NCBI GenBank assembly: GCA_002011035.2 | Contig: MTLY02000001.1 | Location: forward strand, 313,342-377,341 | Direction of reading: 5' to 3' | Length of the DNA stretch: 64,000 bases | From: Candidatus Hecatella orcuttiae | Lineage (GTDB): Archaea; Thermoproteota; Bathyarchaeia; Hecatellales; Hecatellaceae | In this document: piece by piece, positions 25,440 to 42,884 of the stretch | How positions within the stretch are numbered: the stretch's first letter is position 1 | Layout of the letters: each line of letters starts with the position of its first letter | Notes under the pieces: model-generated | What the model was told of the DNA's origin: nothing | What the model saw: only the letters and a program-made list of their open reading frames with translations | Databases searched by the model: none | Translations under genes and position numbers: made by a program

Positions 25440-27029
25440 ATGGCAGGAGAAGAAATGACTGTACAACAATTGGCTGAAATGCTACAGTATGCGCATGGTG
25501 TATGGGTGGAGTGGTTCTACTGGGTTACGGTCATCGTCATGTTCTTCATCCACATCGGCTTCGGCATGTACGAGGTAGGTGTTGCTAGGAGAAAGAACGT
25601 CGGCCACACGCTGATGAAGAACAACATGCTTTTCGCCCTCATCCTCTTCACCTTCTACCTCTTCGGGTGGTGGGTTTACGGCAGCTTCATGGGCCCCAAC
25701 CCCATCAACGCCTTCATACCCAACTACGAGGGCAACCCCTATGTGGGAGGAGACTTCGGACCTCTAAGCCCATTCATGACTGGCAATCTACAGGAGTTAC
25801 CGCCGGGCTTCATGTTGGCTTTCTGGGCTGCCTTCCTCCTCTTCGCCCAAACCGAGGGCTCCATCATCTCCGGAGGCATGATCGAAAGATGCCGCATCAG
25901 CTCATGCGTCGTCCTCGCCGTGATTGTGGGTTCGTTCGTGTGGATATGGCTGGCCGCCCAAGGGTGGAGCAACGGCGGATGGATGCTGAAATGGTTTGGC
26001 ATCCACGACGCCTACGCCAGCGGCATCATCCACACCATCGCCGGCTTCTTCCTCTTAGGCTGCCTCATCAACCTAGGCCCCAGAATAGGCAAATTCGACC
26101 CGCAGGGAAGACCGAGAGACATTCCCCTCCACAACCAGTGGATGACGGCTGTGGGGTTGTTCATCATTGTCACCGGTTTCTGGGGTTTCTACTTCGCCTG
26201 CAACGTCCCCCTGATAATAGCCTGGGACTTAACGCTGCCCTACTGGGGAACGGTCAACATCTTCGGGAACCCCACCACGCTGTCGCTGGTCGGCACCAAC
26301 TTCCTCATGTCTCTGGCAGGAGGGATGATGGGTGGATTCACCGTGGGCCGAGGCAATCCCTTCTGGACTTGGAGCGGAGTCTTAATGGGTATCATCGGCG
26401 CCTCGTCGGGGAACGACCTCTACCATCCCTTCCAAGCCTTCATCATAGGGTTCATCACGCCTTTCATCGGTTACAAGCTTCACTACTGGGTTGAGCGGAG
26501 GTTCAAGATCGACGACGCCGTGGGAGCCTGCGCGGTGCACGGATACTGCGGCTTCATAGGCCTAGGCATCTTCCCAGGCTTTCTGCTCTGGGGCTACCCG
26601 ACCGGGGGGGCCTACTACTTTGGCTTTGACTACATCGCAGGGGTCACCACGCCTTGGGGTCAGTTTGCCTCCGCTCTCTGGGAGGCCGGATGGGCCTTTG
26701 CCATTGGCTTCGTCTGCAGCTGGGTTCTTAAAAAAGCAAAGCTTCTCAGAGTAGAACCTCTGGTAGAGTTGGTAGGCTTAGACATGTCTTCGCCGGCCTT
26801 TGGAGACATGTACCCATACTTCCCGCAGCTTCCAACCGATAAGCTTCCGGAAATCGACAGGGTGCAGTACACGGAGATCGCTAAATACCTCGGCAAGACA
26901 CGTTCCAGTCGAGGACGGTTCGCAAGCAAGGACGCGGGTAGGAAGGACTACCTGCCGCCGGCATCGCCCAAGGAAATGCTGGAGGATGCCATAAGGCTTC
27001 AAAGAAAGCTGATGGGGGGAATTAAATGA
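25440..27029 (+). CDS. Amt/Mep/Rh-family transporter, candidate methylamine permease
   Basis: A 529-residue membrane protein with about eleven hydrophobic helices. Amt hallmarks are present: HDAYASGIIHTIAG (D190 and pore H198, spaced as in AmtB D160/H168), DDAVGACAVHGYCG (pore H367), and FAQTEGSIISGGMIER, which aligns with the AmtB phenylalanine-gate segment (F135). It is about 100 residues longer than typical Amt, mostly as a C-terminal cytosolic tail from about 430. Amt proteins conduct ammonium and methylammonium. The position directly before mtbC-mtbB and close to a PII-like gene suggests import of methylamines, which is inference. It overlaps the next small gene by 4 bases (ATGA). Confidence 0.85.
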   Translation: MAGEEMTVQQLAEMLQYAHGVWVEWFYWVTVIVMFFIHIGFGMYEVGVARRKNVGHTLMKNNMLFALILFTFYLFGWWVYGSFMGPNPINAFIPNYEGNPYVGGDFGPLSPFMTGNLQELPPGFMLAFWAAFLLFAQTEGSIISGGMIERCRISSCVVLAVIVGSFVWIWLAAQGWSNGGWMLKWFGIHDAYASGIIHTIAGFFLLGCLINLGPRIGKFDPQGRPRDIPLHNQWMTAVGLFIIVTGFWGFYFACNVPLIIAWDLTLPYWGTVNIFGNPTTLSLVGTNFLMSLAGGMMGGFTVGRGNPFWTWSGVLMGIIGASSGNDLYHPFQAFIIGFITPFIGYKLHYWVERRFKIDDAVGACAVHGYCGFIGLGIFPGFLLWGYPTGGAYYFGFDYIAGVTTPWGQFASALWEAGWAFAIGFVCSWVLKKAKLLRVEPLVELVGLDMSSPAFGDMYPYFPQLPTDKLPEIDRVQYTEIAKYLGKTRSSRGRFASKDAGRKDYLPPASPKEMLEDAIRLQRKLMGGIK

Positions 27030-27334
27030 GCATCGTTTCAGCCCTTCTATTCGCTCAGCTGCTGGCCTTCGGTACGGGAGTCACCGACTGGGAGGGCGCC
27101 TACTGGGGCGGACCGATAGAGGTCATCAGTCCTCTGTGGGGGATAGGCACCGTCATCAGCGCCCTCGTCGCCGTGGCCATATGGGCCTTCTATCACATCC
27201 TTGACGCGGTTCGAGAGGACAGGACGGAGAAAGCCGCTGTGAGGGAGTGGCTGGAGAAAGGCCTCCCAGAACCCTATACCACCTACGTCCAAGAACTGAC
27301 TGCCGCAGCGAAACCTGAAGAAGCCGAAAAATAA
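27026..27334 (+). CDS. Small membrane protein partner of the Amt transporter
   Basis: A 102-residue protein with two hydrophobic segments (about 1-17 and 35-60), then a charged tail (HILDAVREDRTEKAAVREWL). The start codon overlaps the transporter stop (ATGA), implying coupled translation and equal amounts. I do not recognise a family. It is followed by a T10 tract. The NCS1-type permease at 31141-32562 also travels with a small membrane protein, so a transporter plus small subunit seems to be a theme here. Confidence 0.7.
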   Translation: MSIVSALLFAQLLAFGTGVTDWEGAYWGGPIEVISPLWGIGTVISALVAVAIWAFYHILDAVREDRTEKAAVREWLEKGLPEPYTTYVQELTAAAKPEEAEK

Positions 27335-27357
27335 GCCGACTGTAAACCCTAAAACTC

Positions 27358-27367
27358 TTTTTTTTTT
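27358..27367 (+). terminator. T10 tract after the Amt operon
   Basis: Ten T residues, then nine A residues, lie 24 bases after the small membrane gene. A T-rich tract alone is enough for archaeal termination; it separates the transporter unit from mtbC-mtbB. Confidence 0.5.
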
Positions 27368-27387
27368 AAAAAAAAATCAGAAAATTC

Positions 27388-27399
27388 TACCGGTAAACC
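27388..27399 (+). promoter_or_regulatory. Shared 12-base motif before mtbC promoter
   Basis: TACCGGTAAACC lies immediately upstream of the TATA-like TTTTATATTC (27399-27408) and about 55 bases before the mtbC ATG. The identical 12 bases occur once more at 30628-30639, in the same position before a second gene of the island. The first eight bases form a palindrome (TACCGGTA). It could be a regulator site or a BRE-type element. Confidence 0.5.
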
Positions 27400-27454: not shown

Positions 27455-28099
27455 ATGTCTTCTGAAGAAGCCTTGAAAAAGCTCTACGACGCCATCTTCG
27501 CCCAAGATGTGGAAGCCGCCTCCAAAGCCGCCAACGACTGTGTGGCCGCAGGCCTCGACCCTCTGAAGGCCTTGGAAGCCGCCTCCAAAGCCATGACAGA
27601 CCTAGGAAACCTCTTCGAGAGAGGCGAAGTCTTCCTCCCCCAAGTCGTCGTGGCAGCCGACGCCATGAAAGCCGCTGCCCAAGTTCTTCTCTCCAAGCTG
27701 CCCACCAAACCGTCTAAAGCAGGCAGAGTCCTCATAGGCACGGTGGAGGGCGATGTCCACGATGTCGGCAAGGGAATAGTCTCTGTTCTCCTCGACGCCG
27801 CCGGCTTCGAAGTCATCGACATAGGTCGGGATGTCCCCACCAAGGTCTTCGTCGAGAAAGTCAAAGAGCTCAAACCCAACATCGTAGGCTGCTCAGCCCT
27901 CATGACCGTCACCCGCGTAGGGCAGAAAGCCGTCATCGACGCCCTAGCGAAGGAAGGCATAAGAGACCAGGTGAAGGTCATGGTAGGCGGAGGAGCTACC
28001 ACAGGCGTTTGGGCTGAGGAAATAGGCGCCGACGCATGGGGTGAAGACGGACCGGACAGCGTGAGGAAAGCCAAAAAATTACTCGGCATAACCGAGTAG
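27455..28099 (+). CDS. mtbC: Dimethylamine corrinoid protein
   Basis: A 214-residue cobalamin-binding protein that accepts the methyl group from MtbB on its cobalt and passes it to a methylcobamide methyltransferase. An N-terminal four-helix cap (residues 1-85, with FERGEVFLPQVVVAADAM) is followed by a Rossmann-like B12 domain with the base-off signature GDVHDVGKGIV (cobalt ligand H102), then SALMT and GGGATT. A strong ribosome-binding site (AGGAGGGA) precedes the ATG. It ends in TAG, and mtbB starts 17 bases later, hence the dimethylamine assignment. Confidence 0.93.
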   Translation: MSSEEALKKLYDAIFAQDVEAASKAANDCVAAGLDPLKALEAASKAMTDLGNLFERGEVFLPQVVVAADAMKAAAQVLLSKLPTKPSKAGRVLIGTVEGDVHDVGKGIVSVLLDAAGFEVIDIGRDVPTKVFVEKVKELKPNIVGCSALMTVTRVGQKAVIDALAKEGIRDQVKVMVGGGATTGVWAEEIGADAWGEDGPDSVRKAKKLLGITE

Positions 28100-28116
28100 G
28101 AAGGTGAAAAAGAAAA

Positions 28117-29514
28117 ATGGACTACCTAACCAGAATGGGAGACGGCCGACCGGTAAGAATGAGCAAAGAGCAGATAAAAGCCGACATCGAAGCCGGAACC
28201 AAGGACGCGGCGGAAAAAGCCCACGTCCCCGAGCTTTCAGGAGCCGAACAAGAGCATCTGCTGGAGATCATCACCGACCCCAACCGGCTGGTAGCCGTGG
28301 AGCCGGGGAGAGAAGTCGTCCTCACCCACGACGTAGGGCCTTTGAAGGTGATGGCCGACCAGTCCAACAGCGGAGTGAGCATCCCATGCTCCCGGGAGCA
28401 AGCCATGTGCATCTACGAGAAAGCCTTCAGCGCCGACACCGCCGAGCTGGGGCACATCGACTACAGCTTCAAACCCGTTAAACCCATCATCACCCAGGAG
28501 CAATCGGTCCTGCAGAACGTCCTGCACATGACCATCCTCCCCATCTTCTACGGAGCCATGCCTAACCTAGGCCTATACTACGCCCCAGACGGACCCTTCC
28601 CCGAACCCATCGGGCTCATCAAGGACCGCAAGATAGGGGAAGCAAAAGAATCCATGGAAAACGCCGCCCACAGGTTTGTGGAAGACCTAGAATACATCAC
28701 CGTGAGACTCTACGAGGTAGGCTTGGACGCCTTGAACATCGACACCACCGGCGCCGGAGGCGACGCAGACTTCTACGCCTCCCTTACCGCCACGGAAAAG
28801 ATAAAGAAGGAATGCCCCTACCTCTGCGTGGAAATGGGCATGGCGGGAGAATTCATCCTAGGATTCCACACCGAGCTGAAATATCAAGGCGTCAAACTGG
28901 CGGGACTCTGGCCTCACCAGCAAGCCAGCCTCGCTGAAAAGGCAGGAGTGGACATCTTCGGCCCGGTGGTCAACACCAAGCCTTCTCTGTCCTTCCCCCT
29001 CAACATCGCCAGAGCAGTCACCTTGGTCAAGCACTGCGTCAAAGAATCCAAAATCCCCATCCACGTCAACATGGGCATGGGCGTTGGGGGAATCCCCATG
29101 TACGAAACTCCGCCGGTGGACGCTGTGACCCGGGCCAGCAAGGCAATGGTTGAAATCGCCGAGGTAGACGGCTTATAGGTGGGAGTGGGCGATCCCTTTG
29201 GGATGCCCATAGCTCACTGCGCCGCCAGCGGCATGGGAGGCATCAGGACGGCGGGAGACATGGTGGCTAGGATGCAGATGCTGAGATATAGGTTGAAGGA
29301 CGCGAAGGACTACGTGGCCAAGAAGCTGGAAACCGACACCATGGCTCTGCGGGACGAATTTGAGATGAGAAGGCTGAGGGAGAGGCTCAACATCGGCACT
29401 ATCACAGGCGTCCCAGGGGTCGCCAGGGGCCTCGAAGCCAAAGCCCGAATCGCCGAGATCCTCGGCATCCGCATCAACGCTGTCGAACGCCTTAAGGAAC
29501 TGGTGAAACTCTAA
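28117..29514 (+). CDS. mtbB: Dimethylamine:corrinoid methyltransferase, pyrrolysine at residue 354 (in-frame TAG 29176-29178)
   Basis: Demethylates dimethylamine to monomethylamine, methylating MtbC. Two open frames of 353 and 111 codons are in the same frame and split only by TAG; together they give 465 residues. The family standard in Methanosarcina is 467 with pyrrolysine at 356. Sequence before the amber ([16 protein letters not shown]) and after it ([20 protein letters not shown]) is continuous family sequence. Pyrrolysine forms an adduct with the amine for attack by Co(I). The true stop is TAA at 29514. A GAAGGTGA ribosome-binding site precedes the ATG. Full decoding needs the tRNA-Pyl and PylS encoded at 36.5 kb. 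Confidence 0.96.
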
Positions 29515-29857
29515 AGAGCCAAGCCCAGAGCCACCGCCCACCGACCCACGCGTGAAGCGAGGGGGATGAGGGAACGGCTAAGCCTCTGGGCCACAAACCC
29601 CATCTTCCTTTTTTTGAGCCGGAAGTATTGTGAAGGCTGATCTTAGAAAAAGTTAAATTCAGTGCACCGCTAGCCTTTTTAGAGGTAAAAATTGAAAAAG
29701 GACGGCAGCCGCCGAGCCTGCGTATTTCAGGTGGAAGCCAAGGAAACGGCACCTGATGTAACGGTGTCTCATCTGGGAGGCAGCCTTGGAAAAACCATGC
29801 CAAATATGTTATATTTGACATAGCCTTTTTTGGGGAAGCCTTCTTTTAGGTGATTTA
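29515..29857. other. Intergenic region with possible hairpin element
   Basis: This 343-base gap follows mtbB. A T7 tract at about 29611 may end the mtbCB message. CCAAGG at 29738-29743 pairs with CCTTGG at 29784-29789, enclosing a GGCACC/GGTGTC hairpin; this could be a folded leader, but it matches no riboswitch class I know. TTATATTT near 29809 is a likely TATA box for the TusA-like gene. No ORF is convincing. Confidence 0.4.
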
Positions 29858-30088
29858 ATGGAGGAAGCTCACGAAGTATTGGACGTTCGAAAAAAAGCCT
29901 GCCCCATGCCCGTTTTGTTGACGAAGAGAAAACTTGCGGAGTTGGAGGTGGGGAAAATTCTCAAGGTCATCGGAGACTATCCGTCGGCTAAAGAAAATAT
30001 TCAAAGATTCGTCCTCAGAGAGGGACATGAGATCCTAAACATCAAAGAGAACCGAGCTAAGTTTGAAATCGTCATAAAAAAAGCTTAA
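29858..30088 (+). CDS. TusA/SirA-like sulfur-carrier protein
   Basis: A 76-residue protein of the TusA fold. EVLDVRKKACPMPVLLTKRK holds the CPxP signature with the sulfur-carrying Cys near residue 14, and the rest follows the beta-alpha-beta-alpha-beta-beta layout. TusA-family proteins relay persulfide sulfur for tRNA thiolation, cofactor or selenium chemistry, or sulfur oxidation. Its place inside the methylamine island, between mtbB and the PII-like gene, is unexplained. A TATA-like element lies about 45 bases upstream. Confidence 0.85.
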   Translation: MEEAHEVLDVRKKACPMPVLLTKRKLAELEVGKILKVIGDYPSAKENIQRFVLREGHEILNIKENRAKFEIVIKKA

Positions 30089-30155
30089 ATCACATATTTC
30101 CCATATTCTATTTAGAGGCAGGCTAAACCCTTAGCCACCTTTTAGGAGGAATTTT

Positions 30156-30500
30156 TTGAAAAAAATTGAAGCCTACATTAGGGCTGAAAGATTGAAGGAA
30201 ACTATACAGAAATTGAAGGAAATAGGCGCACCCGGGTTCACCTACTATGATGTGAGAGGCCATGGCAGAGAATACAAGTCTGGGTTCACCCCCACGCCCT
30301 TCACGCCGCCCATCGTAGAAGATATTCTTCCTAGGTCGAAGATTGAAGTCTTCTGCGAGGATGGAGATGTAGAAAAGATCGTCGACGCCATCCGAGGAGG
30401 ATGCTGCACGGCAAAGCCAGGGGATGGCATGGTTTTCATAAGCACCATCGACGAAGCCCAACGCTTAAAAACCAAAGAAAAAGTGCAAAAACTCGAATAG
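30156..30500 (+). CDS. PII-like (GlnK-related) regulatory protein
   Basis: A 114-residue PII-superfamily protein. KKIEAYIRAERLKETIQKLK is the PII first strand and helix, YDVRGHGREYKSGF stands for the T-loop base, and TAKPGDGMVFISTID matches the B-loop GDGxIFV that binds nucleotide. The T-loop is divergent, without the usual Tyr51 context. GlnK proteins plug Amt channels, and an Amt-type transporter is encoded 3.1 kb upstream on the same strand, so control of that transporter is a fair guess. The start is TTG, preceded by AGGAGG. It ends in TAG. Confidence 0.8.
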   Translation: MKKIEAYIRAERLKETIQKLKEIGAPGFTYYDVRGHGREYKSGFTPTPFTPPIVEDILPRSKIEVFCEDGDVEKIVDAIRGGCCTAKPGDGMVFISTIDEAQRLKTKEKVQKLE

Positions 30501-30627
30501 CCGAAAACTGAAACAAACACCTCCTCCTTTTTATGGAGAAGGCGCTGTTTTTGGTGGAAATTTTGTGAGAGTAGAAACAGCCTCTCTCAAAATCTACGCT
30601 GGGAGAGGGGCAAAGTTTTAAAGAATA

Positions 30628-30639
30628 TACCGGTAAACC
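30628..30639 (+). promoter_or_regulatory. Second copy of TACCGGTAAACC
   Basis: This is identical to 27388-27399. It lies 47-58 bases before the ATG at 30686 and directly upstream of a TATA-like CATAGAATAC, the same arrangement as before mtbC. A related core (ACCGGT in TAAACCGGTGAA on the minus strand, about 32884-32895) lies before the small permease partner. Confidence 0.5.
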
Positions 30640-30685
30640 ATAGAATACACGGGGACGGAATCATCTCAGCGTTGTTGATGCCAGA

Positions 30686-30901
30686 ATGGATGTTGAAATC
30701 GAGGAACACAGACATTGTAGCGTTTGCGGCAGCGTGGTGCGGGGAAAGGGAAGAGCTAGGTCTGGCGTGGTGCTTTGCGGGCCCAGATGCGCTAAGATGT
30801 ACGAGGATGAGATGGCGAAAGCTCGAAGGCTGAAGGTGATGTGGTTTTTCCCCATCATATTTTTCCTCATAATCTTCATAATACTAGTTTTGAGAGGCTG
30901 A
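30686..30901 (+). CDS. Zinc-ribbon membrane protein (DUF2116-like)
   Basis: A 71-residue protein. HRHCSVCGSVV and VLCGPRCAKMYEDEM form a Cys4 ribbon (residues 9-40), followed by a basic helix and one C-terminal membrane segment (about 49-68), so the ribbon sits on the cytosolic face. I recall this architecture as DUF2116. A clear homologue lies at 33037-33273 on the other strand, the two bracketing the NCS1 permease. Function unknown; the shared upstream motif with mtbC suggests a role tied to methylamine use. Confidence 0.7.
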   Translation: MDVEIEEHRHCSVCGSVVRGKGRARSGVVLCGPRCAKMYEDEMAKARRLKVMWFFPIIFFLIIFIILVLRG

Positions 30902-31108
30902 AAAACCCATAGCATATGGCCACATGTGGCTCTTGTTTTCAGGCTGATCTTCCCCGACGCGAATAACCGCGTCCAGCCAGCTCCATCAAACCGAGGAATG
31001 GCTCGCCGAAGCTGTCTTCAAAGGCAACTACTCTTTGAAGACTTTTACAGATACCTGCCTTAAGGCATGAAACAAAAATTTTAGACTTCAATTTGGGTTG
31101 TTTTTTTT

Positions 31109-31125
31109 AAAAAAAAAAAAAAAAA
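31109..31125 (-). terminator. U17 tract after the NCS1-type permease
   Basis: Seventeen A residues on the + strand give a 17-base U-tract in the minus-strand transcript, 15 bases after the permease stop. It is the longest homopolymer I see in the window and fits a U-tract terminator. Confidence 0.6.
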
Positions 31126-31140
31126 GTTGTGGGAGGGTTT

Positions 31141-32562
31141 TCACTCGACCACACGTAGTCTTTTCACTTCTTGCGGGTATATCAGATGCATGAGGAGCCA
31201 GTACAAGGCGATGGCATAGCCGAACACTAGGAGAAGCCCTGAAACCCATGGGAAGCCGACGCCGAAGTAGCCTACGTAGCCTGTCAGAGGGTTGTAGACT
31301 CCCAGGTAGATTATGACACTGGAGAGATAGGTGATCCAAGCTGCCAGGTTGAAGCCTTTGTGGTATCGGAATATCTTCCCCATCATGTACATGTCTCTTA
31401 TCTCGTCCACCGTCCAGTAGCCTTTCTTCTTCCTGAAGGCGAAGAAGTCGGTGAAGATTATAGCCCCGTACACCGTCCACAGACAGCCGATGAGCGTCAG
31501 GAAGACAGCGTAGTTGTTGAACACCACTTCCTGAAACAGCACTACGGCCGGTACTGCCGCTATCGTGACGCTGGCATGCACCCACCTTATCCTAGGTATG
31601 GCCACCTTGATGGGTATAGCCGCCGTGTAGATAAGCAGCACAATCGACCCTATGTTGGCAATGGCGAAGAGGAAGAGCCCTATACCGCCGAAAGTTGCTC
31701 CACCGATAGCCATGAACCAGTCGGTTGGATCGAAGGTTCCAACGATCAAAGCCGTGAGAATGGAGAAGACCACAGCAATGCACAGGACAGGCCCCCAGCC
31801 CCACCATGGACCGTGAAGGGCCGCTGACTCGGTCTTTGCCAGACGGGACCATTGCCCCCAATAGTAGCACCAAGCAAAACCTAAGCCTAGGTTCCACTCA
31901 AAGGCATTCATCCAAGATAGATGACGAGTCTCGTATGCTGCTACCGGTTGACGGGCGAAAACAGCGCCAATTCCTTCCACGGCGAAGATGTAGTAGATCA
32001 GGCCGCCTAGCACTATCAGCATCAATGGGGACGTAACCCTCGTAAACCACTTGCATGCAATGGGACCCTTCCAAGCTACGTAGGAGGCAATGGCCGTTGC
32101 TATAACTGCCCAGAGGGTGGCGCCCGGCCATACGGTTGCGAGAACGGAGGGCACCTGAGGCCAGATCAGCGGGGTTAATTTTATCGCAGACATGCCGAAG
32201 AGAAACGCTGAATACGCTATCCACCCGTAGTTGATAGGTATCCATATGGCCAGCTGAAGGTTGCCTCCTCTGTTTCCAAAGGCAGCTCTCGTCAATAGGA
32301 ACTGGTCGGCTCCATATCTGCCAAATATCACAGCATAAAAGGCGGATGCGAAGAGGCCTAATCCCTCACCGGCTATGGCGGCTGTTATGGCTTCAGTGGC
32401 AGGCAGTACTATTCCAGTCAAGCCGCCTACTAGGAAAGCCCAAGAGGCTATACCGTAGGCCATCTGCAGCCAGACATAGTCCACGAAACCGTAGACCCGG
32501 TCTTCCGCCAGCACCGGCAAAGCGCCGAACAGTACTTCCTTTTCAATCGCTTCTTTGGCCAT
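31141..32562 (-). CDS. NCS1-like permease, candidate methylamine importer
   Basis: A 473-residue membrane protein with about twelve helices. The N-terminal ASWAFLVGGLTGIVLPATEA and the QFLLTRAAFGNRGGNLQLAI stretch follow the nucleobase-cation-symporter (NCS1) pattern. The substrate is not readable. Its place between dimethylamine and trimethylamine gene sets suggests it brings in trimethylamine or a related amine, which is inference. In Methanosarcina the amine permeases are of other families. A small membrane protein gene lies 3 bases upstream on the same strand. It ends in TGA, followed by a U-tract terminator. Confidence 0.78.
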   Translation of the reverse strand: MAKEAIEKEVLFGALPVLAEDRVYGFVDYVWLQMAYGIASWAFLVGGLTGIVLPATEAITAAIAGEGLGLFASAFYAVIFGRYGADQFLLTRAAFGNRGGNLQLAIWIPINYGWIAYSAFLFGMSAIKLTPLIWPQVPSVLATVWPGATLWAVIATAIASYVAWKGPIACKWFTRVTSPLMLIVLGGLIYYIFAVEGIGAVFARQPVAAYETRHLSWMNAFEWNLGLGFAWCYYWGQWSRLAKTESAALHGPWWGWGPVLCIAVVFSILTALIVGTFDPTDWFMAIGGATFGGIGLFLFAIANIGSIVLLIYTAAIPIKVAIPRIRWVHASVTIAAVPAVVLFQEVVFNNYAVFLTLIGCLWTVYGAIIFTDFFAFRKKKGYWTVDEIRDMYMMGKIFRYHKGFNLAAWITYLSSVIIYLGVYNPLTGYVGYFGVGFPWVSGLLLVFGYAIALYWLLMHLIYPQEVKRLRVVE

Positions 32563-32565
32563 TTT

Positions 32566-32877
32566 TTATCGCCCCTTCCTCACCCGGTCAATTCCTATGA
32601 GTACCACTAGGATCAGTAGAGACCCGTAGAAGGACATGTGCGCCCAGAGGGGTATAGGGTTCACATAACCCAGCACTGCGAAAACAATAGCCCACAGCAT
32701 GGCGAACGCCAAGGCCGCATAAGACCACATGGGGCATTTGGTAACCAAGGAGCCTTCGGTTCGAAGTTTTTCATCTAGGATCTTCAGTCTCCTCTCAAGC
32801 TCAGCGTGGAAGGCAGGGTAGAATGTTTCCGCGTCCATTCCAAACCAGAAACCTGCTCCTTTTTTCTTCTCACTCAC
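32566..32877 (-). CDS. Small membrane protein partner of the NCS1-type permease
   Basis: A 103-residue protein with a soluble start (YPAFHAELERRLKILDEKLR) and two membrane helices (about 50-70 and 76-96), ending in VRKGR. The GTG start at 32877 follows directly after an ACCGGT-core motif. The permease starts 3 bases after its stop, so they form one unit. It recalls the small DUF485/DUF4212-type subunits that accompany some bacterial symporters, though I cannot confirm homology. Confidence 0.7.
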   Translation of the reverse strand: MSEKKKGAGFWFGMDAETFYPAFHAELERRLKILDEKLRTEGSLVTKCPMWSYAALAFAMLWAIVFAVLGYVNPIPLWAHMSFYGSLLILVVLIGIDRVRKGR

Positions 32878-33036
32878 AGTTCTTCACCGGTTTATCTTTT
32901 GGAGAATTTTCAGCTACATTCAAGTTAGTATTAACTATTCTTTTAGTATTTAAATTTTTGCGGCGATCAGCTTATAAAAAACAATTAATAATTTATTTAA
33001 CAAAAAATAGATTTTTCGTAAGCCTGTTAAAATCAT

Positions 33037-33273
33037 TTAACCGAAAAGAAGCGCCAAAATTGCCAGAGGAACGAGCACGATGAACGTGGAGAGGTACCAG
33101 AGAAGTTTTATTCTCTTAACTTTTTTAACCCGCTTATCATATGTTTTTGAACACTGCTCACTGCATACGTAGGCTTTCCCAGGTTTGCCCTTGTCCTTGT
33201 GAGATATGACTGCTCCGCAAACCGCGCAGTGCTTGTGCTCCTCAAGGCCTTCCACGCTCAAAACTCCCACCAT
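33037..33273 (-). CDS. Zinc-ribbon membrane protein (DUF2116-like), paralogue of 30686-30901
   Basis: A 78-residue protein from the ATG at 33273: LEEHKHCAVCGAVI and AYVCSEQCSKTYDKRVKK give the Cys4 ribbon, then a basic stretch and a C-terminal membrane segment (about 58-78). The frame is open much further upstream, but that part is the reverse of the gene at 33394 and has non-coding composition. Domain order and spacing match the 71-residue protein at 30686. The gene is divergent from 33394-33981. Confidence 0.75.
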   Translation of the reverse strand: MVGVLSVEGLEEHKHCAVCGAVISHKDKGKPGKAYVCSEQCSKTYDKRVKKVKRIKLLWYLSTFIVLVPLAILALLFG

Positions 33274-33393
33274 GAGAGGGGTTATCGAAAAGAAACTAGG
33301 GCTCAACCATGTTATTAAATTATTTGAAGACGGTTGTCTGACCTTTAACCAAAGCTTATTTTTCAGGAGATGGTTATTTTTGAAAGATAAACA

Positions 33394-33981: not shown

Positions 33982-34021
33982 AAAAATAGAGGGGAAATTT
34001 AGGCTGATTTAATCAGCCAAG

Positions 34022-35506: not shown

Positions 35507-35652
35507 TGCATTTTTCACCTCCCTTTTTTCTGGGTATTTGTTTCATCACGCCCCTCCTCGGCGCTCGATGAGTGTACCCTTCAAGCATCTCCGCCCCTCA
35601 TCAACATGGTTCAGGGCAGCGGCTTGGCTGAAGGGTTAAACCGGATGATGGG

Positions 35653-36303
35653 TCATTTCTTTTCCAGAAGTTCTTTAGCCTTGTTCACAGCGTCGACAGC
35701 ATCTTCTCCTCGAGCGTCAGCACCGATGACTTTAACCCAGTCAGCGGTAACCGGCGCGCCTCCGACCATGTAGACTACTTTGTCCCTGATGCCTGCCTTC
35801 TTCAACTCTTCAGCCAAAGTCTTCTGCTCAGGCATGGTGGTAGTCATGAGGGCAGAAGCGCCGACGATATCAGCGTTGACCTCTTTGGCCTTGTCTACGA
35901 TGGTTTTAGCCGGTATGTCGCGGCCTAGGTTGAACACTTGGAATCCGGCGGCCTCCATCATCACGGCGACGATGTCTTTTCCTAGGTCGTGAACGTCTCC
36001 GAGGACTGTGGCTATCACTACTTTGCCTAGGTATTTTCTTTCCTTTCCCGCCTGAAGCTTAGGCGTCAGCATGACTATCGCTTCCCTCAGAGCATCAGCC
36101 GCCATCATGACGTGAGGGAGGTAGAGTTCACCTTTCTGGAAGGCTTCCCCTATCTTCCGCATTTCTTCGGTGCTGGCGTCGATGGCCGCTAAAGCGTCTA
36201 TGTCAGACTCGAGGATCTTGTTCACGACAGCCTTCGTGGCTTCCACGTCACCTTCGCGGATCGCTGCGCACAATTTACGCAATATTTCTTCTTTTTCAGC
36301 CAT
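35653..36303 (-). CDS. mttC: Trimethylamine corrinoid protein
   Basis: A 216-residue B12-binding protein, partner of MttB. The helical cap (residues 1-88, FQKGELYLPHVMMAADAL) precedes the B12 domain with GDVHDLGKDIV (cobalt ligand H105), SALMTTTMPEQ and GGAPVT. It lies 147 bases before mttB on the same strand, matching the usual mttCB order. Its 5' region (36304 to about 36420) holds an A+T-rich promoter and a GCTAC/GTAGC hairpin in the leader, divergent from tRNA-Pyl. Confidence 0.93.
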   Translation of the reverse strand: MAEKEEILRKLCAAIREGDVEATKAVVNKILESDIDALAAIDASTEEMRKIGEAFQKGELYLPHVMMAADALREAIVMLTPKLQAGKERKYLGKVVIATVLGDVHDLGKDIVAVMMEAAGFQVFNLGRDIPAKTIVDKAKEVNADIVGASALMTTTMPEQKTLAEELKKAGIRDKVVYMVGGAPVTADWVKVIGADARGEDAVDAVNKAKELLEKK

Positions 36304-36465
36304 AGGAGAACAACCCCTGTCGTTTCACCCCCAACTAGTAAACATTGTTTGCATTAAAAAATTTTTCCAGCTACTACTTTTCTGGTAGCGGGGAAGCGGC
36401 AGAAAAATTGAGCGGTTTAAATAATTAATGTAAGCAGATTCAAAAAAATCTCTGATTTAGATAAA

Positions 36466-36500
36466 CCAATTTATAGGGGAAAGATAAAAGTACAAATTGG
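36466..36500 (+). promoter_or_regulatory. Promoter region of tRNA-Pyl with inverted repeat
   Basis: A TATA-like TTTATAGG (36470-36477) lies about 45-50 bases before the mature tRNA end. It is bracketed by CCAATTT (36466-36472) and AAATTGG (36494-36500), a perfect 7-bp inverted repeat. The repeat could be an operator that lets the cell control tRNA-Pyl supply. Confidence 0.4.
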
Positions 36501-36520
36501 TGAACTGCGAAAAAATTGAT

Positions 36521-36588
36521 GGGGGATCGGCCGGGGGGCCACAAGAGTTCTAACCTCTTGGAGCCGGGTTCGACTCCCGGATCCCTCG
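36521..36588 (+). tRNA. pylT: tRNA-Pyl (anticodon CTA, reads UAG)
   Basis: 68 bases fold as tRNA-Pyl. Acceptor stem GGGGGAT with ATCCCTC (one G-T pair), one linker base, D-stem GGCC/GGCC with a tiny GGGG loop, one base, a 6-bp anticodon stem CAAGAG/CTCTTG, loop TTCTAAC with anticodon CTA (36550-36552), a 3-base variable loop GAG, T-arm CCGGG/CCCGG with loop TTCGACT, and discriminator G. The 6-bp anticodon stem, short D-loop and 3-base variable loop are hallmarks of tRNA-Pyl. CCA is not encoded. It lies 40 bases before pylS. Confidence 0.96.
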
Positions 36589-36602
36589 GCACAGGAAAAG
36601 GG

Positions 36603-36612
36603 CTTATTTAAA
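36603..36612 (+). promoter_or_regulatory. TATA-like element before pylS
   Basis: CTTATTTAAA lies 17-26 bases upstream of the pylS ATG and downstream of the tRNA. With no clear ribosome-binding site, this suggests a separate, nearly leaderless pylS message rather than processing from the tRNA transcript. Confidence 0.45.
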
Positions 36613-36628
36613 ATCTATGTGAGCTTCC

Positions 36629-37471
36629 ATGGGCGATTCCTCCATCACCTTTACCCCCAGCCAAAAGCAGCGTTTGATAGAGCTTGGTGCTGAGCTCAGC
36701 AAACTGGAAGCTTCTTTTACCTCCCCCAGAGAGCGGGAAAAGGTTTTCAACAGCCTAGCTGAGAAGCTTACGAGAAAAAACCGGGAAACGATAAAGAAGC
36801 TGAAGGACAGCGGAAAAAGGCCTCCCCTTAAAACCGTTGAAAGTAAGCTGGTGAACGTTTTAACCTCTCTGGGGTTCGTTGAGGTTGTCACTCCCACGAT
36901 AATTCCGAAGACCTTCATCAGCCGAATGGGGATCGAAAAGGAAAGCAACCTCTGGCAGCAGATACTCTGGCTGGACGGCCGGCGATGCCTCCGCCCCATG
37001 CTGGCACCTAACCTATACTTCGTAATGGGGAAGCTTAGAAGATTCTGGAAGCCTGTGAGGATATTCGAGGTTGGATCCTGTTTTCGAAAAGACACTCGGG
37101 GGTCCTTCCACACCGAAGAGTTCACCATGCTCAATTTCGTGGAGTTAGCTCCTGATGCAAACCCTCGGGAACGTTTGGCGGAGCTGATAGCCAAGACTAT
37201 GGGAGGCCTCGGCATCGGATCCTACGAGGTTCGATCTGAAAGCTCAGAAGTCTACGGGGAAACCTTAGATGTCTTGGTCAAAGATGTGGAGATAGGCTCC
37301 GCTGCCATAGGGCCTAAGCCCATGGATGTCAACTGGGGCATCGTTGACCCTTGGGTAGGGTTGGGCCTCGGCATTGAAAGAGTAGCCATGGTGACAGGGA
37401 ACCATCACCCCATAGCGAGGGTGAGTAGAAGCCTCATATACCTCAACGGCGCTAGGTTGGATATCAAATAG
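36629..37471 (+). CDS. pylS: Pyrrolysyl-tRNA synthetase, short class lacking the PylSn domain
   Basis: Charges tRNA-Pyl with pyrrolysine. 280 residues cover the class II catalytic domain only, without the N-terminal tRNA-binding PylSn domain of Methanosarcina; no separate pylSn is in the window. LRPMLAPNLYFVM forms the pocket helix, FEVGSCFRKDTRGSFHTEEF is motif 2, TMLNFVE supplies the Asn gate, VYGETLDV the lid Tyr, and VDPWVGLGLGIERV motif 3. Compared with M. mazei, C348 is Val and L309 is Met, as in the short Methanomethylophilus-type enzymes (from memory). The C-terminus SRSLIYLNGARLDIK also fits that class. It ends in TAG, and pylB starts 5 bases later. Confidence 0.95.
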   Translation: MGDSSITFTPSQKQRLIELGAELSKLEASFTSPREREKVFNSLAEKLTRKNRETIKKLKDSGKRPPLKTVESKLVNVLTSLGFVEVVTPTIIPKTFISRMGIEKESNLWQQILWLDGRRCLRPMLAPNLYFVMGKLRRFWKPVRIFEVGSCFRKDTRGSFHTEEFTMLNFVELAPDANPRERLAELIAKTMGGLGIGSYEVRSESSEVYGETLDVLVKDVEIGSAAIGPKPMDVNWGIVDPWVGLGLGIERVAMVTGNHHPIARVSRSLIYLNGARLDIK

Positions 37472-37475
37472 GGCT

Positions 37476-38585
37476 GTGGAATTGATGCCCCTGACGAGCA
37501 CCGCCTTGAAGGGCGAGGCTTCCCGCGAGGTTCAGGAAATTCTGGCAAAAGCCGCTGAGGGAAACTTAGAGGAGAAGGACGCCCTACGCTTGATGAAAGC
37601 CGAAGGCATAGACGACTTGTTCGCCCTGTTCAACACCGCCCATGAGATAAGAAAACGACAGTTCGGCGACAAGGTTTTCGCCTACGGCTTCGTCTATTTT
37701 TCCACCTACTGCCGGAACAATTGCTCCTTCTGCCTTTACCGGCGTGCAAACCGGTGTGCTCCCCGCTATAGGAAAAAAGCAGACGAAATAATGGAGATAG
37801 CGGAGATGTTGAAGAAGTCGGGAGTGCACCTCATCGACTTAACCTCGGGGGAAGACCCTCAAATCCATTCGGAGAAAGGGTACCGCAGACTGTTGAGCTA
37901 CGTGGAGAGGCTGAAGAAGGAATTGGACATGCCTCTCATGGTTTCACCGGGGGTTTTACCGAAAACCGTTCTCAGGGAGTTGGGAAGAAAAGGTTTGGAC
38001 TGGTATGCCCTCTACCAGGAAACCCACAACCGCCTTCTTTTCTCCAAGCTCCGCTGCCGCCAAGACTATGATGAAAGGATGAAAGCCAAGACCTACGCCA
38101 GAGAAGAGGGAATGCTTATTGAGGAGGGAATTCTCATCGGTGTAGGCGAAAGCAGGGAAGACGTGGTCGATTCCGTCTACCAGATGAAAAAGATGAAAGC
38201 CCACCAGGTTAGAGCCATGGGCTTCATACCTCAGAGAGGAACTCCTATGGAAAGCCGCCCCTCGCCGCCGATTCTCGAAGAAATGAAGGCCATATCTTTG
38301 ATGCGCCTTGTCCACCCAGATAGGCTGATCCCAGCTTCCTACGACATCGACGGTCTTAAAGGCCTAGGCCTACGCCTGATGGCTGGGGCCAACGTGGTGA
38401 CCTCCCTGATACCTCCAAGGTTTCACCTCCGGGGAGTAGCCCAGGCGGAGTTGGATGTGGAAAGCAGCCTGCGAACGCTTTCTGGCGTAAAACCCTACCT
38501 CCAAAAGCTGGGATTGGAGGTAGCTTCCCTGAAGAGTTACAGGAAATGGATTGAAGAAGAGAAAGCTCGCCTCCCGGGGAAATAG
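37476..38585 (+). CDS. pylB: Methylornithine synthase PylB, radical SAM
   Basis: Converts lysine to (3R)-3-methyl-D-ornithine, the first step of pyrrolysine synthesis. 369 residues; VYFSTYCRNNCSFCLYRR carries the radical-SAM cysteines C79, C83 and C86 (CxxxCxxC). GEDPQIHSEKGY and the barrel motifs GVGESREDVVDSVYQMKK match PylB and its biotin-synthase-like relatives. The start is GTG at 37476, or ATG three codons on. It ends in TAG (38583-38585), followed in the same frame by two sense codons and then the pylC ATG. Confidence 0.94.
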   Translation: MELMPLTSTALKGEASREVQEILAKAAEGNLEEKDALRLMKAEGIDDLFALFNTAHEIRKRQFGDKVFAYGFVYFSTYCRNNCSFCLYRRANRCAPRYRKKADEIMEIAEMLKKSGVHLIDLTSGEDPQIHSEKGYRRLLSYVERLKKELDMPLMVSPGVLPKTVLRELGRKGLDWYALYQETHNRLLFSKLRCRQDYDERMKAKTYAREEGMLIEEGILIGVGESREDVVDSVYQMKKMKAHQVRAMGFIPQRGTPMESRPSPPILEEMKAISLMRLVHPDRLIPASYDIDGLKGLGLRLMAGANVVTSLIPPRFHLRGVAQAELDVESSLRTLSGVKPYLQKLGLEVASLKSYRKWIEEEKARLPGK

Positions 38586-38591
38586 GCTTCC

Positions 38592-39800
38592 ATGCCCGTC
38601 AAAACCTTATGCATCGCAGGCGGACGGCTTCAGGGAATTGAGGCTGCCTACCTTGCCAGAAAAGCCGGATACAAAACAGTGCTCGTAGACCGGAGAGCCA
38701 AGCCACCTGCCTCAACGCTCGTTGACAACTTCAAGAGACTGGACGTGGCGAAGGATAAAGGCAGGTTGAAGAAAGCAGTAGAGGAAAGCGACGCAGTCTT
38801 ACCAGCTCTAGAGGACGAAGAAGCCTTACGGGTTCTGGAAGAAACTTGCTGCCAGGCAGGGGTTCCCTACCTGCAGGATAACAGCGCCTTCGCCGTCACC
38901 TCCAATAAAATCCAGTCTCAGAGCTTCTTCAGGAAAATGGGCCTTCCAACTCCAGAAATCTGGCCTCGATGCCGGCTGCCCGTGATAGTCAAGCCCGCTC
39001 ATGCGAGCGGAAGCACCAGCATATACAAGGTGGAAAGGATAGAGGAGCTGAGCCAAGCTGTGGATGCTGTGTTGAAGACAGACCGTGAATACCTGATCCA
39101 AGAATACGTGGAAGGCCCATCCTTGTCCTTGGAGGTTTTATCCTGGAACGGCGAAGGGCAGCCTCTTCAGGTCACAGGCCTAGAATTCGACCGAACCTTC
39201 GGCTGCAAACGGGTTGTGGCTCCATGCCGGCTTGATAGCTTTCTGGAGGAAGAGATATTCGAAATGGGAAGGAGGATGGCTGAAGGGCTGAACCTATCGG
39301 GTTTAACTGATGTTCAATTAATCCTAGGCCCACAGGGGATCAGGGTCATAGAGATGAACGCTAGGCTGCCAAGTCAAACACCTACGGTGGTATACCATTC
39401 AACCGGCGTAAACATGGTTGAATTGCTCTGCTCACTTTTCACCCAAGGCAATCTGCGCCCTGTGAAAATACCCGACCAGAAGGCTGTCATCTACCAGCAT
39501 GTGAAAATTGAAGGAAAGCAACTGACAGTGACAGGAGAGCACAGCCTCTCGGACGCTGAAGGCTTGAGGTTTGAGAAAAACTTCATGGGAGCGGATGAAG
39601 CCGTCACCAACCTCAACCCTGAGGGGGAGGCTGAAGGATGTGTAGCAACATTGATAACCGTGAGCCGTCGCCTCCGAGACGCGAAAAAGAAAATGGAAAA
39701 ATCCGTGAACTCCCTTCGACACCGTTATGGGCTCACCGGCTTCTCTGACCCCTCACCAGAAGGTTTGAGGCAGAAGTTCTATGACGAGATTGACTCCTGA
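38592..39800 (+). CDS. pylC: Pyrrolysine biosynthesis ligase PylC
   Basis: ATP-grasp ligase joining 3-methylornithine to the epsilon-amine of lysine. 402 residues, somewhat longer than the usual 360-380, the excess being at the C-terminus. The N-terminus KTLCIAGGRLQGIEAAYLAR is the PylC nucleotide-binding start, LPVIVKPAHASGS is the ATP-grasp lysine loop, and GIRVIEMNARLPSQTP holds the metal-binding Glu/Asn. The gene overlaps pylD by 20 bases and lies in the same frame as pylB. Confidence 0.94.
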   Translation: MPVKTLCIAGGRLQGIEAAYLARKAGYKTVLVDRRAKPPASTLVDNFKRLDVAKDKGRLKKAVEESDAVLPALEDEEALRVLEETCCQAGVPYLQDNSAFAVTSNKIQSQSFFRKMGLPTPEIWPRCRLPVIVKPAHASGSTSIYKVERIEELSQAVDAVLKTDREYLIQEYVEGPSLSLEVLSWNGEGQPLQVTGLEFDRTFGCKRVVAPCRLDSFLEEEIFEMGRRMAEGLNLSGLTDVQLILGPQGIRVIEMNARLPSQTPTVVYHSTGVNMVELLCSLFTQGNLRPVKIPDQKAVIYQHVKIEGKQLTVTGEHSLSDAEGLRFEKNFMGADEAVTNLNPEGEAEGCVATLITVSRRLRDAKKKMEKSVNSLRHRYGLTGFSDPSPEGLRQKFYDEIDS

Positions 39801-40608
39801 GATTTTAAAGCCCATCCCCGAGACGGTTCCCCGATTTGATGAGGAGTTAAAAGCTAAAATCGGCGTCAGCCTTCTGGAAGCAGCCCTCCGCGCAGCCGAC
39901 TGCGGTGCAGCCGTAGAGAGGGCGTTGAAACGCTGTCGGGCCGCCGTTGTACCCATAACTTCCGGGGAAGGCATCATTCCCGGCTTCGCTGAGGCTGTGG
40001 CATCCACTCTCCGCCATTTGGGATTGCAGGCTGAGCCAACCCGGAATTCGGACGTTCGGGGGTTCATCGAGGCTTTGGAGAAAAAATGTCAGCTCCTCTT
40101 CGCCGCCGACGACCATGTTTTCGCAGGCATGAACCTTCGAAATTTTAAGGTAGTGGACAACGCCCCTGCCACCGGCCGAGGCTATGCGGCGGTTTTGGAA
40201 TTAAAGCTAAAGGAGAAAAGTAAGTGCGCAGCAGTCATCGGAGTGGGAAAGGTGGGCTCCGCCGCCGTCGCTTATCTAGCTGGAAGAGGGTTTCCGGTTT
40301 ATATCTACGATTCAAACCGCGCCAAAGCTGAGCATGTGAAAAACACGAACCCGGGGAGAAACATTCAGGTATGCAGCTCTGTGGAAGAATGTTTCAGCAA
40401 AGCTAGGGGAGTCATCTTGGCAGCTCCAGCCGCCAACTTGGTGACGGAGGCCATGGTGGACGAAGACACCGTGATAGCCGCCCCGGGGATTCCTTTGGGA
40501 CTCACAGCGGAGGCAAGGCGGAAGCTTCCTGAGAGGAATCTTATCCACGAACCTCTCATGCTGGGAGTGGCGACTATGGCGGTGGAGCTTCTCAAACCTA
40601 AACCCTAA
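39781..40608 (+). CDS. pylD: Pyrrolysine biosynthesis dehydrogenase PylD
   Basis: Oxidises 3-methylornithyl-lysine with NAD, after which the ring closes to pyrrolysine. 275 residues with the helical N-terminal domain of PylD and a Rossmann domain marked by CAAVIGVGKVGSAAVAYLAG (GxGxxGxxA), followed by VYIYDSNRAKAE with the acidic residue that binds NAD ribose. AAPAANLVTEAMVDEDTVIA completes the family pattern. It starts inside the end of pylC. The order pylSBCD is the canonical one. Confidence 0.94.
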   Translation: MTRLTPEILKPIPETVPRFDEELKAKIGVSLLEAALRAADCGAAVERALKRCRAAVVPITSGEGIIPGFAEAVASTLRHLGLQAEPTRNSDVRGFIEALEKKCQLLFAADDHVFAGMNLRNFKVVDNAPATGRGYAAVLELKLKEKSKCAAVIGVGKVGSAAVAYLAGRGFPVYIYDSNRAKAEHVKNTNPGRNIQVCSSVEECFSKARGVILAAPAANLVTEAMVDEDTVIAAPGIPLGLTAEARRKLPERNLIHEPLMLGVATMAVELLKPKP

Positions 40609-40743
40609 GCTATCGGTGTCTGAAAAACCAGCAACCCCTCTAAGATTATTACCTTACCCTTGCTTTTCAGCTTAAGGAAATATGAAAGAGAAAAATACAG
40701 AGGGTAGTAGGGGAGACTGGGCGGAAATAAAAGAGAGAGGTGT

Positions 40744-42135
40744 TTAGAAGGTGAACTTCAACCCTAGTCCTTCCAAGGTCTCCACAGCCTTCCCGTAGAC
40801 CTCCACGTACTCCGGTGTAGGAGTCACTTTAACCACGTCGTAGCATTGCTGGAATGTCTTACCCTGAGGCGGGTTCCTGTAGTTTCCCTCGTAAAGGGAT
40901 ATCAGCTTGTCCAAGATCTCGTTCACAGTCTCCACCTTCATCCCAGCCACAGCCTTGGCAGCTTCACCCATAATCCTCGCCTCCATACCTGTGGTGTAAT
41001 CCAAGGCCACACCCTTAGCCGCAGCGGACCCAGACATCAGCTCCCGGCCGCTGCCTGTGTCCGTGATGGCCTGCGCAGCCGTTTCCAGGAGACACATCTC
41101 CGTGCAAGGCTGGGCTAGAGGATAGTACTGGTTGGAAGTCAACAGGTGCGTGTTGGCGTCGATGGCCATGTTGCAGTGCCCAGCCACCGTCAAGGGCTCC
41201 CGGGCGGTGGTGATCCCCCACCTGACATGAACAGGCCCGTCTAGGTGGAAGTCGGCGTTGCAGATGGTGAAGGCGATGAGGTGGGAGGACACGTCCACGA
41301 TGGTGGTTTCCTCCAAGCCGCCGGCGTAGCCGCCGAAAGTGGGCATCTGCTCGATCATGATGATGTCGCCGTTCATGATCCACCCTGCTATCATCTGAAG
41401 CCCTCCTAGGTCCACCTTCAACTCGTTGAGCAGGGACATTTCATGGGGGTCAGACGCCCTCATGCCGCCTTCGAAGTCGGCGGCAATTCGCCCCGCAGGG
41501 CTTAGGGGCGTCTCTGGTCCCTATAAGCCCATGCCAGGCCTGCCCACCTTATGGCAGGCTTGCCTGACTAAAGCGACCTCCATTCTTGTCCCTTTGATTT
41601 CCCAAGGCGAGTTGGGGAAGGGCTCGTTTCCTTCCACGGTGTTCATCACTCCGCTGACAATACAGTCGACAATGGCTTCCTGAGCGTAGCTTTGCATCAT
41701 GGGAAGGAAAATTTCCTCCGAAACCGGAGCGCCTGTAGGTCCGCCTTGGACGATAGGCCATCGGGAGTCTTGAGGAGACCTGGGAACCATGTCCACGGCG
41801 TCCCTTCCTTCGCCGATGACCAGCTTATCAGGGGCTTTCTTGATGGCCTCCTTGACCTCTTCCTCGGTGACTTTTATAACCCGACCGGTGTTGATGCAGT
41901 AGACGCCGTTCTGAACCAGCATCTCCATGCCGGCTAGGAACAGGCTGTTGATGGTGTCCTTGTCGGTGGGTATGACTTCCTTTTCATTGAACTTTATCCC
42001 GTATTTCTTCTTGAGCGCCGACGCGCTTTGAGGGATAATTTTAAAGTCCCATTCTTTTTCGGAAACCTTAGGCCCTGTCTTAGCTCTGTTGAAAGCTTCA
42101 AACACGTCTACCGGTCTTTCCACAACTTTTTTCAA
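40744..42135 (-). CDS. mtmB: Monomethylamine:corrinoid methyltransferase, pyrrolysine at residue 205 (in-frame TAG 41521-41523)
   Basis: Demethylates monomethylamine to ammonium, methylating MtmC. Frames of 204 and 258 codons share one frame and are split only by TAG, giving 463 residues (458 and Pyl202 in Methanosarcina). The amber context GRPGMGL-Pyl-GPETPLSP is the diagnostic MtmB site. YTTGMEARIMGEAAKAVAG and GKTFQQCYDVVKVTP are conserved C-terminal blocks. The TTG start is fixed by a GGAGGTGA ribosome-binding site at about 42139-42146. The real stop is TAA. It follows mtmC by 98 bases. Confidence 0.97.
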
Positions 42136-42233
42136 TTTCTCACCTCCTTTCCCTTTGATTTTTAACTGTCTCTTTTACCCTTTAGCACACCCTCATGCTC
42201 AGTCGGGCATGCGGGTTTGGTAAAAGAGTTGCA

Positions 42234-42884
42234 TCATCTACCAACTAGGTTTTTGGCTACCTTAACCGCTTCCGCTGCATCCGCCGCGTAGCCGTCGCCG
42301 GCAATCTGCTCCACATACTCCCTTGAAACCGGCGCCCCTCCGTGGAGAGTTTTAACCCTGTCTCTTAACCCTGCCTCCTTCAGAGCGTCCACTATTTCTT
42401 TTTGAGCCGGCCTGGTGGTGGTCATCAAGGTTGAGGCGGCGACGATGTCGGCGTCGATCTCCTTAACCTTCTTCAGAAACTCTGCGATGGGGACATCTCG
42501 GCCTATGTCTACAACCTCAAAACCTGCCCCTCGCAGCATGGTGGCCACGAGGTTTTTGCCGATTTCATGGATGTCCCCCTCCGGTGTGCCTATGACAACT
42601 TTCCCCAGTTTGGCTTTCTCCGCCTGAGCGGTGGTCATTTTTTCCTCCAGTATTTTTGTGGCTTCGCTCATGGCATCGGCTGCCAGCACTATTTGGGGAA
42701 GGTATAGTTCCCCTTTGTCGAAACGGTCTGAAATGGTCTCCATTCCTTTCGCGAGGCCTTGGGTGATAGCTTCATAGGGGTCAATGCCGGCTTTAAGGGC
42801 TTCTTTAGCTCCCTCGACAGCCGCAGACACGTCCATCTCTTCGATAGCCCGCTTTAGTTTATTAAATATCTCTTCTTTGGACAT
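42234..42884 (-). CDS. mtmC: Monomethylamine corrinoid protein
   Basis: A 216-residue B12 protein partner of MtmB. Helical cap with FDKGELYLPQIVLAADAM, then the B12 domain with GDIHEIGKNLV (cobalt ligand His about residue 106), STLMTTTRPAQ and GGAPVS. I choose the ATG at 42884; an in-frame TTG three codons upstream lies too close to the GAGG ribosome-binding site. A TATA-like CCTATAAAATC lies about 30-40 bases upstream. TGA stop. Confidence 0.93.
   Translation of the reverse strand: MSKEEIFNKLKRAIEEMDVSAAVEGAKEALKAGIDPYEAITQGLAKGMETISDRFDKGELYLPQIVLAADAMSEATKILEEKMTTAQAEKAKLGKVVIGTPEGDIHEIGKNLVATMLRGAGFEVVDIGRDVPIAEFLKKVKEIDADIVAASTLMTTTRPAQKEIVDALKEAGLRDRVKTLHGGAPVSREYVEQIAGDGYAADAAEAVKVAKNLVGR

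Follow-up and report, generated by a model that had tools for sequence, protein, structure and literature searches.

A predicted pyrrolysine-dependent methylamine demethylation system in a Bathyarchaeia genome without mcrA

Several described archaeal systems resemble the locus reported here. In 2017, Juan de Fuca Bathyarchaeota were reported to carry PylSc, MtmB, MtbB and MttB, as seen in the part of that study cited here (Mukai et al., PMC5424206), and a 2025 review lists Bathyarchaeota among the phyla with PylSc (PMC11764691). In Candidatus (Ca.) Hecatella orcuttiae JdFR-11, Mtr has been described as a remnant of methanogenesis, and a route from methylamines via Mtr to the Wood-Ljungdahl pathway was predicted (Adam et al., 2022, PMC9635834). 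The use of pyrrolysine (Pyl) by non-methanogenic archaea was reported in 2021 in the Asgard lineage Sifarchaeia (Sun et al., PMC9723677). The Methanomassiliicoccales, which are methanogens, have delta-PylSn systems in which PylS lacks its N-terminal domain (PMC3941956, PMC9499178). The present report concerns a Pyl and methylamine gene set in a window of 64,000 nucleotides, the whole stretch of DNA analysed, at positions 313342-377341 of a 535-kb contig. The genome comprises 1.75 Mb in three contigs (C1, C2 and C3) and is 97.1% complete, with an estimated contamination of 4.25%.

The gene set spans 27455-42893 and holds tRNA-Pyl, pylS, pylB, pylC, pylD, mtbCB, mttBC and mtmBC. Its content points, with good confidence, to a Pyl cassette and a three-step demethylation module through which a Bathyarchaeia host without methyl-coenzyme M reductase (Mcr) would pass methylamines via Mtr into the Wood-Ljungdahl pathway. 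The cassette lies on the forward strand: pylT, encoding tRNA-Pyl(CUA) (36520-36590; found by ARAGORN), pylS (36629-37471; 280 residues, catalytic domain only; TIGR02367, 279/178 bits, score and NCBIfam equivalog cut-off here and below), pylB for 3-methylornithine synthase (37476-38585; TIGR03910, 436/348 bits), the ligase gene pylC (38592-39800; TIGR03909, 355/248 bits) and the dehydrogenase gene pylD (39781-40608; TIGR03911, 217/150 bits; PF21455). Each of the four proteins exceeds its equivalog cut-off, and the PDB chains nearest to the window PylS are PylRS. The dimethylamine pair, also on the forward strand, consists of the corrinoid protein gene mtbC (27455-28099; B12-binding and B12-binding_2) and the methyltransferase gene mtbB (28117-29514; PF09505, 687 bits; TIGR02368, 597/369 bits). 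On the reverse strand are the trimethylamine methyltransferase gene mttB (34022-35518; TIGR02369, 668/525 bits) with its corrinoid partner mttC (35653-36303; B12-binding domains), and the monomethylamine methyltransferase gene mtmB (40744-42135; PF05369, 731 bits) with mtmC (42234-42893; TIGR02370, 241/215 bits). All of these genes had been named in a first-pass annotation and were recovered; the interval it gave, 25440-42884, needs the correction that its first 2 kb are an Amt-family transporter gene.

When TAG is read as Pyl (O), MtbB, MttB and MtmB are full-length members of their families. Each has exactly one internal TAG, at codon 354 of mtbB (29176-29178), codon 336 of mttB (34511-34513) and codon 205 of mtmB (41521-41523). 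The TAGs of mtmB and mttB fall on the Pyl residue when aligned to the Methanosarcina barkeri enzyme structures (1tv2 and 1l2q for MtmB; 7xcm for MttB), and homologues from other records carry a single TAG at the same family position; the Pyl position of MtbB was judged from homologues only, not from a structure. This match to the family Pyl sites is far beyond chance, and the annotation's claim of one internal TAG per methyltransferase at the family position is thereby borne out. Away from the island, near a non-Pyl mtmB, is a second mtbB, which has one in-frame TAG and is accompanied by its own mtbC (contig C3:408052-409431; L053:13034-14446). When 26% of the genome was searched for further genes interrupted by TAG, 54 open read-through stretches with at least 80 codons on both sides emerged; on inspection, none but the known methyltransferases and the second MtbB appeared real, the others being neighbouring genes or antisense frames.

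The pylT gene has the hallmarks of a tRNA-Pyl. The mature tRNA reads 36521-36588, with G1:C72, G73, a 3-nt variable loop and no encoded CCA, and its long anticodon stem and CUA anticodon fit tRNA-Pyl. The stem has 6 bp and is unbroken. PylSn (TIGR03912) had no match in the genome, while the control Methanosarcina matched, which places the window PylS in the delta-PylSn class. Together the Pyl genes are supported as a pyrrolysine-encoding system, for which Pyl insertion at UAG is predicted. Methanomassiliicoccales likewise combine a PylS without N-terminal domain with three-tier methylamine enzymes, but in their type (delta-PylSn class A/B) the tRNA-Pyl has a broken or bulged anticodon stem, they use UAG as a stop in at most 11% of cases, and the window PylS groups elsewhere. 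Ca. Sifarchaeia share with the window genome the absence of methanogenesis, high UAG stop use and a tRNA-Pyl gene without CCA; there, however, Pyl is found in MtbB only and pylS lies apart from pylBCD, whereas here all three methyltransferases and a second MtbB carry a Pyl codon.

UAG is also an ordinary stop codon in this genome. The natural stops of mtbC, mttB, pylS and pylB are TAG, and both roles of the codon thus occur inside the island. Among open reading frames (ORFs) of at least 150 residues in 455 kb (26% of the genome), 88 of 342 end in TAG (25.7%). In the Pyl-less genome G019, of the same family, TAG ends 214 of 721 ORFs (29.7%; 993 kb; p=0.21 for the difference), so that there is no TAG avoidance relative to G019. 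Backup in-frame stops are not in excess near TAG-ending genes, and selection for them was rejected. In Pyl-containing archaea TAG has been described as a rare stop (<6%; cited in PMC9723677), with a maximum of 11% in Methanomassiliicoccales (PMC3941956), whereas Sifarchaeia show no avoidance of UAG (21% of stops; PMC9723677). For bacteria with Pyl, regulation rather than codon avoidance is said to be the solution (PMC3941956). Since UAG terminates about a quarter of the genes, the supply of Pyl is probably regulated or limiting, with decoding competing with termination; this is taken as the likeliest account of TAG stop use. The stop of pylB is in frame with pylC, and read-through would yield a PylB-Pyl-PylC fusion of 774 residues (37476-39800). 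The same arrangement was seen at another locus (L168:5002-7110, reverse strand), where a corrinoid-protein gene stops at a TAG in frame with the next, non-Pyl mttB. The pylS of Ca. Borrarchaeum weybense (L101:9998-10924) is likewise TAG-terminated.

How might one codon serve both functions? UAG could mean Pyl only where a PYLIS-type element follows the TAG and sets a local context, and be a stop elsewhere. The Rfam models PYLIS_1 (mtmB; 59 bits, under the gathering score), PYLIS_2 (mtbB) and PYLIS_3 (mttB) start exactly at the three TAGs, and TAG is common as a stop elsewhere. These models overlap conserved coding sequence and would match any orthologue; they are therefore not independent evidence and give no argument for a signal in cis, and it has been stated that no insertion sequence is required (PMC9723677). 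A local-context code is for these reasons considered unlikely. The undiminished TAG stop use and the many non-Pyl MtmB and MttB paralogues might also suggest a decayed or silent cassette, with UAG only a stop and the host living by its non-Pyl methyltransferases. All Pyl genes and both halves of every methyltransferase are intact, however, and each of four genes at two loci has one TAG, placed precisely at the Pyl site; neutral decay would leave further stops or frameshifts. Sifarchaeia also combine high TAG use with intact Pyl genes (PMC9723677), and silence of the cassette appears very improbable. Within the reading of a working cassette, a speculative and rather doubtful extension is that the supply of Pyl acts as a switch: methylamines would induce UAG read-through that lengthens many proteins, fuses PylB to PylC and feeds back on the cassette, while in parallel a large MtmB superfamily with an altered Pyl site would have radiated to other methyl donors.

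Whole-genome comparison places the host in the class Bathyarchaeia (TACK), on the strength of its kinship to two named Bathyarchaeota genomes, G418 (CP070659.1; bin796) and G476 (CP070759.1; bin28), which were identified by coordinates and sequence and belong to the same class as the window genome. Housekeeping genes of the window are syntenic with contig C7 of G019 in two blocks, PheT-PheS-Trp/Tyr-type synthetase-M24-DUF1512 and S8e-ThiC-aIF2gamma-Kae1, at 55-73% identity. For the Pyl and methyltransferase genes between these blocks, the examined 83% of G019 holds no counterpart, only distant corrinoid-protein and radical-SAM matches. PylS was found in three of the 257 class genomes examined, in three different families, and the same-family genomes have neither PylS nor any MtmB. 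The contig is genuine; either the window lineage gained the cassette or its relatives lost it. The annotation had proposed a TACK-like host from S26e and intron-rich tRNA genes. The placement is upheld by the kinship to bin796 and bin28 and by the synteny with G019, and S26e is present (2205-2480); "intron-rich" comes down to a single predicted intron-containing tRNA (43749-43899, reverse strand) beside the right end of the island. ARAGORN calls this tRNA Pro(AGG), but its 'intron' contains a CAT anticodon-like loop, and the gene may instead encode a Met-type tRNA whose intron is displaced.

The gene content of the genome outlines a route for the methyl groups. The gene mcrA (PF02249) is absent from the 97%-complete genome and from 30 relatives, in a search that picked up both control methanogens. 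An Mtr cluster in the order E-D-C-A/F-H, with MtrA and MtrF fused, lies on contig C2 (L167:7551-12574); the genome has two MtrH, and MtrC, MtrD and MtrE were not found in the examined 83% of G019. CdhC is present, as is RamA, which has a gene of the URO-D methyltransferase type beside it; URO-D proteins total six. The genome fits the Mcr-less Bathyarchaeia with canonical Mtr (Hecatellales type). In the proposed pathway, PylB, PylC and PylD would make pyrrolysine, PylS without an N-terminal domain would charge tRNA-Pyl, and UAG would be decoded as Pyl in MtmB, MttB and the two MtbB. The predicted substrates, trimethylamine, dimethylamine and monomethylamine, would be demethylated in turn to ammonia, with transfer of the methyl groups to the corrinoid proteins MttC, MtbC and MtmC, which RamA would reactivate. 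Proteins of the URO-D type would methylate coenzyme M. Mtr, coupled to Na+ and running in the putative reverse direction, would pass the methyl group to tetrahydromethanopterin. In the Wood-Ljungdahl pathway it would then be oxidised or go into acetyl-CoA made by carbon monoxide dehydrogenase/acetyl-CoA synthase, without methane being formed. The analysis shows which genes are present, where the Pyl sites lie, that mcrA is absent, how the stop codons are used and how the proteins group in trees; expression and regulation, like the substrates and the direction of flux, are predictions.

A gene content like that of methylotrophic methanogens, together with a PylS whose sister group is the methanogen Methanomethylicus, could also belong to a methyl-reducing methanogen, its Mcr having escaped detection or fallen into the 3% that is unassembled. 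Methyl-coenzyme M reductase, the mark of a methylotrophic methanogen, was found neither here nor in the 30 relatives by a search that detected both controls; the host is therefore not a methanogen of the classical type, a methanogen identity was rejected on this ground, and a missed Mcr is highly improbable. Nor does it seem that DNA of a methanogen, as contig or island, was binned with a Bathyarchaeia genome. The estimated contamination and the lack of Pyl genes and of all MtmB in family members would fit such an artefact. The 535-kb contig, however, carries housekeeping genes (PheS/T, the Trp/Tyr-type synthetase, S8e, ThiC, aIF2-gamma and Kae1) in synteny with G019, GC content is unchanged across the island, MtmB paralogues occur on all three contigs and the second Pyl mtbB on C3, and no record found exceeds 57% identity to PylS. 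Contamination was rejected on the synteny, the long contigs and the lack of a GC shift, and a binning artefact is extremely improbable. Several points do weigh against the proposed pathway from methylamines to the Wood-Ljungdahl pathway. Its support is drawn from sequence only; the six URO-D proteins may include true decarboxylases as well as MtbA-type proteins; the Mtr evidence covers E/D/C/A-F/H; the absence of mcrA at 97% completeness is strong, not absolute; and termination at TAG throughout the genome, pylS and pylB included, sits poorly with constitutive Pyl decoding.

The origin of the cassette has been addressed by phylogeny. In one scan of named genomes, the nearest PylS carriers included Ca. 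Methanomethylicus and Ca. Bathyarchaeota bin796 and bin28, and JdFR-18 and JdFR-19 were also returned. In trees of PylS and PylB the window groups with Methanomethylicus (support 97/88 and 97/94). A clade with the other two Bathyarchaeia carriers, bin796 and bin28, is disfavoured by approximately unbiased (AU) tests (p=0.007 for PylS, where the test was chosen after the tree was seen, and p=0.028 for PylB), as is a single origin of Pyl in Bathyarchaeia. MtbB also pairs with Methanomethylicus (71% identity, support 85/75), the nearest MtmB by identity is bacterial (63%), and MttB does not exceed 50% identity to anything among the loci compared; these loci were picked via PylS, and the methyltransferases of Methanosarcinales and most Methanomassiliicoccales fall outside the sample. 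A mosaic history of the cassette is likely. Integration at the neighbouring tRNA was rejected, as there is no direct repeat of it at the left edge of the island. No PylS was found in viral contigs.

The genome is also rich in relatives of the Pyl enzymes. PF05369 finds 12 MtmB, 11 of them without TAG, including one in the window (20899-22269, forward strand; 405 bits) with Phe aligned at the Pyl position. The 11 have eight kinds of residue at the Pyl site (F, V, L, I in three, Q in two, G, W and P), are mutually 28-72% identical and are spread over contigs C1, C2 and C3. A corrinoid-protein gene adjoins four of them, singly or as a tandem pair; no more than 4 kb separates a fifth from a gene pair for a URO-D and a corrinoid protein. 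Three additional MttB without Pyl are present. In 2026 the non-Pyl MtmB protein MtqB of Methanococcoides was shown to demethylate tetramethylammonium and choline (PMC13044021). Given this activity, the 11 paralogues probably act as methyltransferases on other methyl donors; their likeness to MtqB, an MtmB-family protein without Pyl, is at the level of the family. MtmB matches are similarly numerous, and partly fragmentary, in the Bathyarchaeia relatives G418 and G432.

Other genes lie around and within the island. The annotation had listed two transporters, and both were found. One is the Amt-family (ammonium/methylammonium) protein at the left end (25440-27029, forward strand; PF00909, 3.5e-55), which has no counterpart in the examined 83% of G019. 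It is followed by a 102-residue membrane ORF without family (27026-27334), which was considered as a separate PylSn and rejected because it looks, by inspection, like a membrane protein. A PII-family nitrogen regulator lies near Amt (30156-30500, forward strand; PF00543). The other transporter is an NCS1-like permease (31141-32562, reverse strand; weak match to PF02133; TIGR00800, 65 bits, under the cut-off), possibly an amine transporter, with a 103-residue ORF upstream (32566-32877). DUF2116-like proteins with a zinc ribbon and membrane helix are encoded on either side of the permease (30686-30901, forward strand; C-terminal part of 33037-33798, reverse strand). Further along the window, 46651-51152 encodes a DsrE-like protein, a double rhodanese, a two-repeat nitrite/sulfite reductase and a radical SAM/NifX-like protein. 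These genes have no counterpart in the examined part of G019 and may represent a second acquired module, for sulfur, adjoining the island.

What does the locus add to the systems described before? Little-described methylotrophy in the lineage had been suggested. The Pyl use and three-tier demethylation are supported, while the novelty holds only in part, given the 2017 report, as far as its cited passages go, and the 2022 prediction (PMC5424206; PMC9635834). The system is real, yet it belongs to a kind known from earlier reports on Bathyarchaeia; its value therefore lies in details such as the ordinary stop use of TAG. The Juan de Fuca Bathyarchaeota share with it the host group, the MtmB, MtbB and MttB genes and, in the cited part of that study, a PylSc that forms a clade with Methanomethylicus V1; those passages do not describe how the island is laid out, how often UAG is a stop or how many non-Pyl paralogues there are. 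Ca. Hecatella orcuttiae, as described in PMC9635834, shares the host class with Mtr and the pathway proposed here, but the main text of that paper does not mention pyrrolysine genes, which are present here. The genome studied here is probably that of Ca. Hecatella or of a near relation. The PylS scan gave no Juan de Fuca Bathyarchaeota, which would be expected if that genome is the window's own, left out of the scan. Beyond PMC9635834 and the cited passages of PMC5424206, the analysis adds a TAG stop share of about 25%, a second Pyl mtbB, eleven non-Pyl MtmB, and the grouping of PylS and PylB with Methanomethylicus rather than with bin796 and bin28. To conclude, a near-complete genome appears to put pyrrolysine to methylamine use without methanogenesis while UAG is still a stop. 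How archaea tolerate UAG suppression thus becomes testable outside Sifarchaeia, and the eleven non-Pyl MtmB of this single genome make good candidates for enzymes with new methyl-donor specificities in anoxic sediments.

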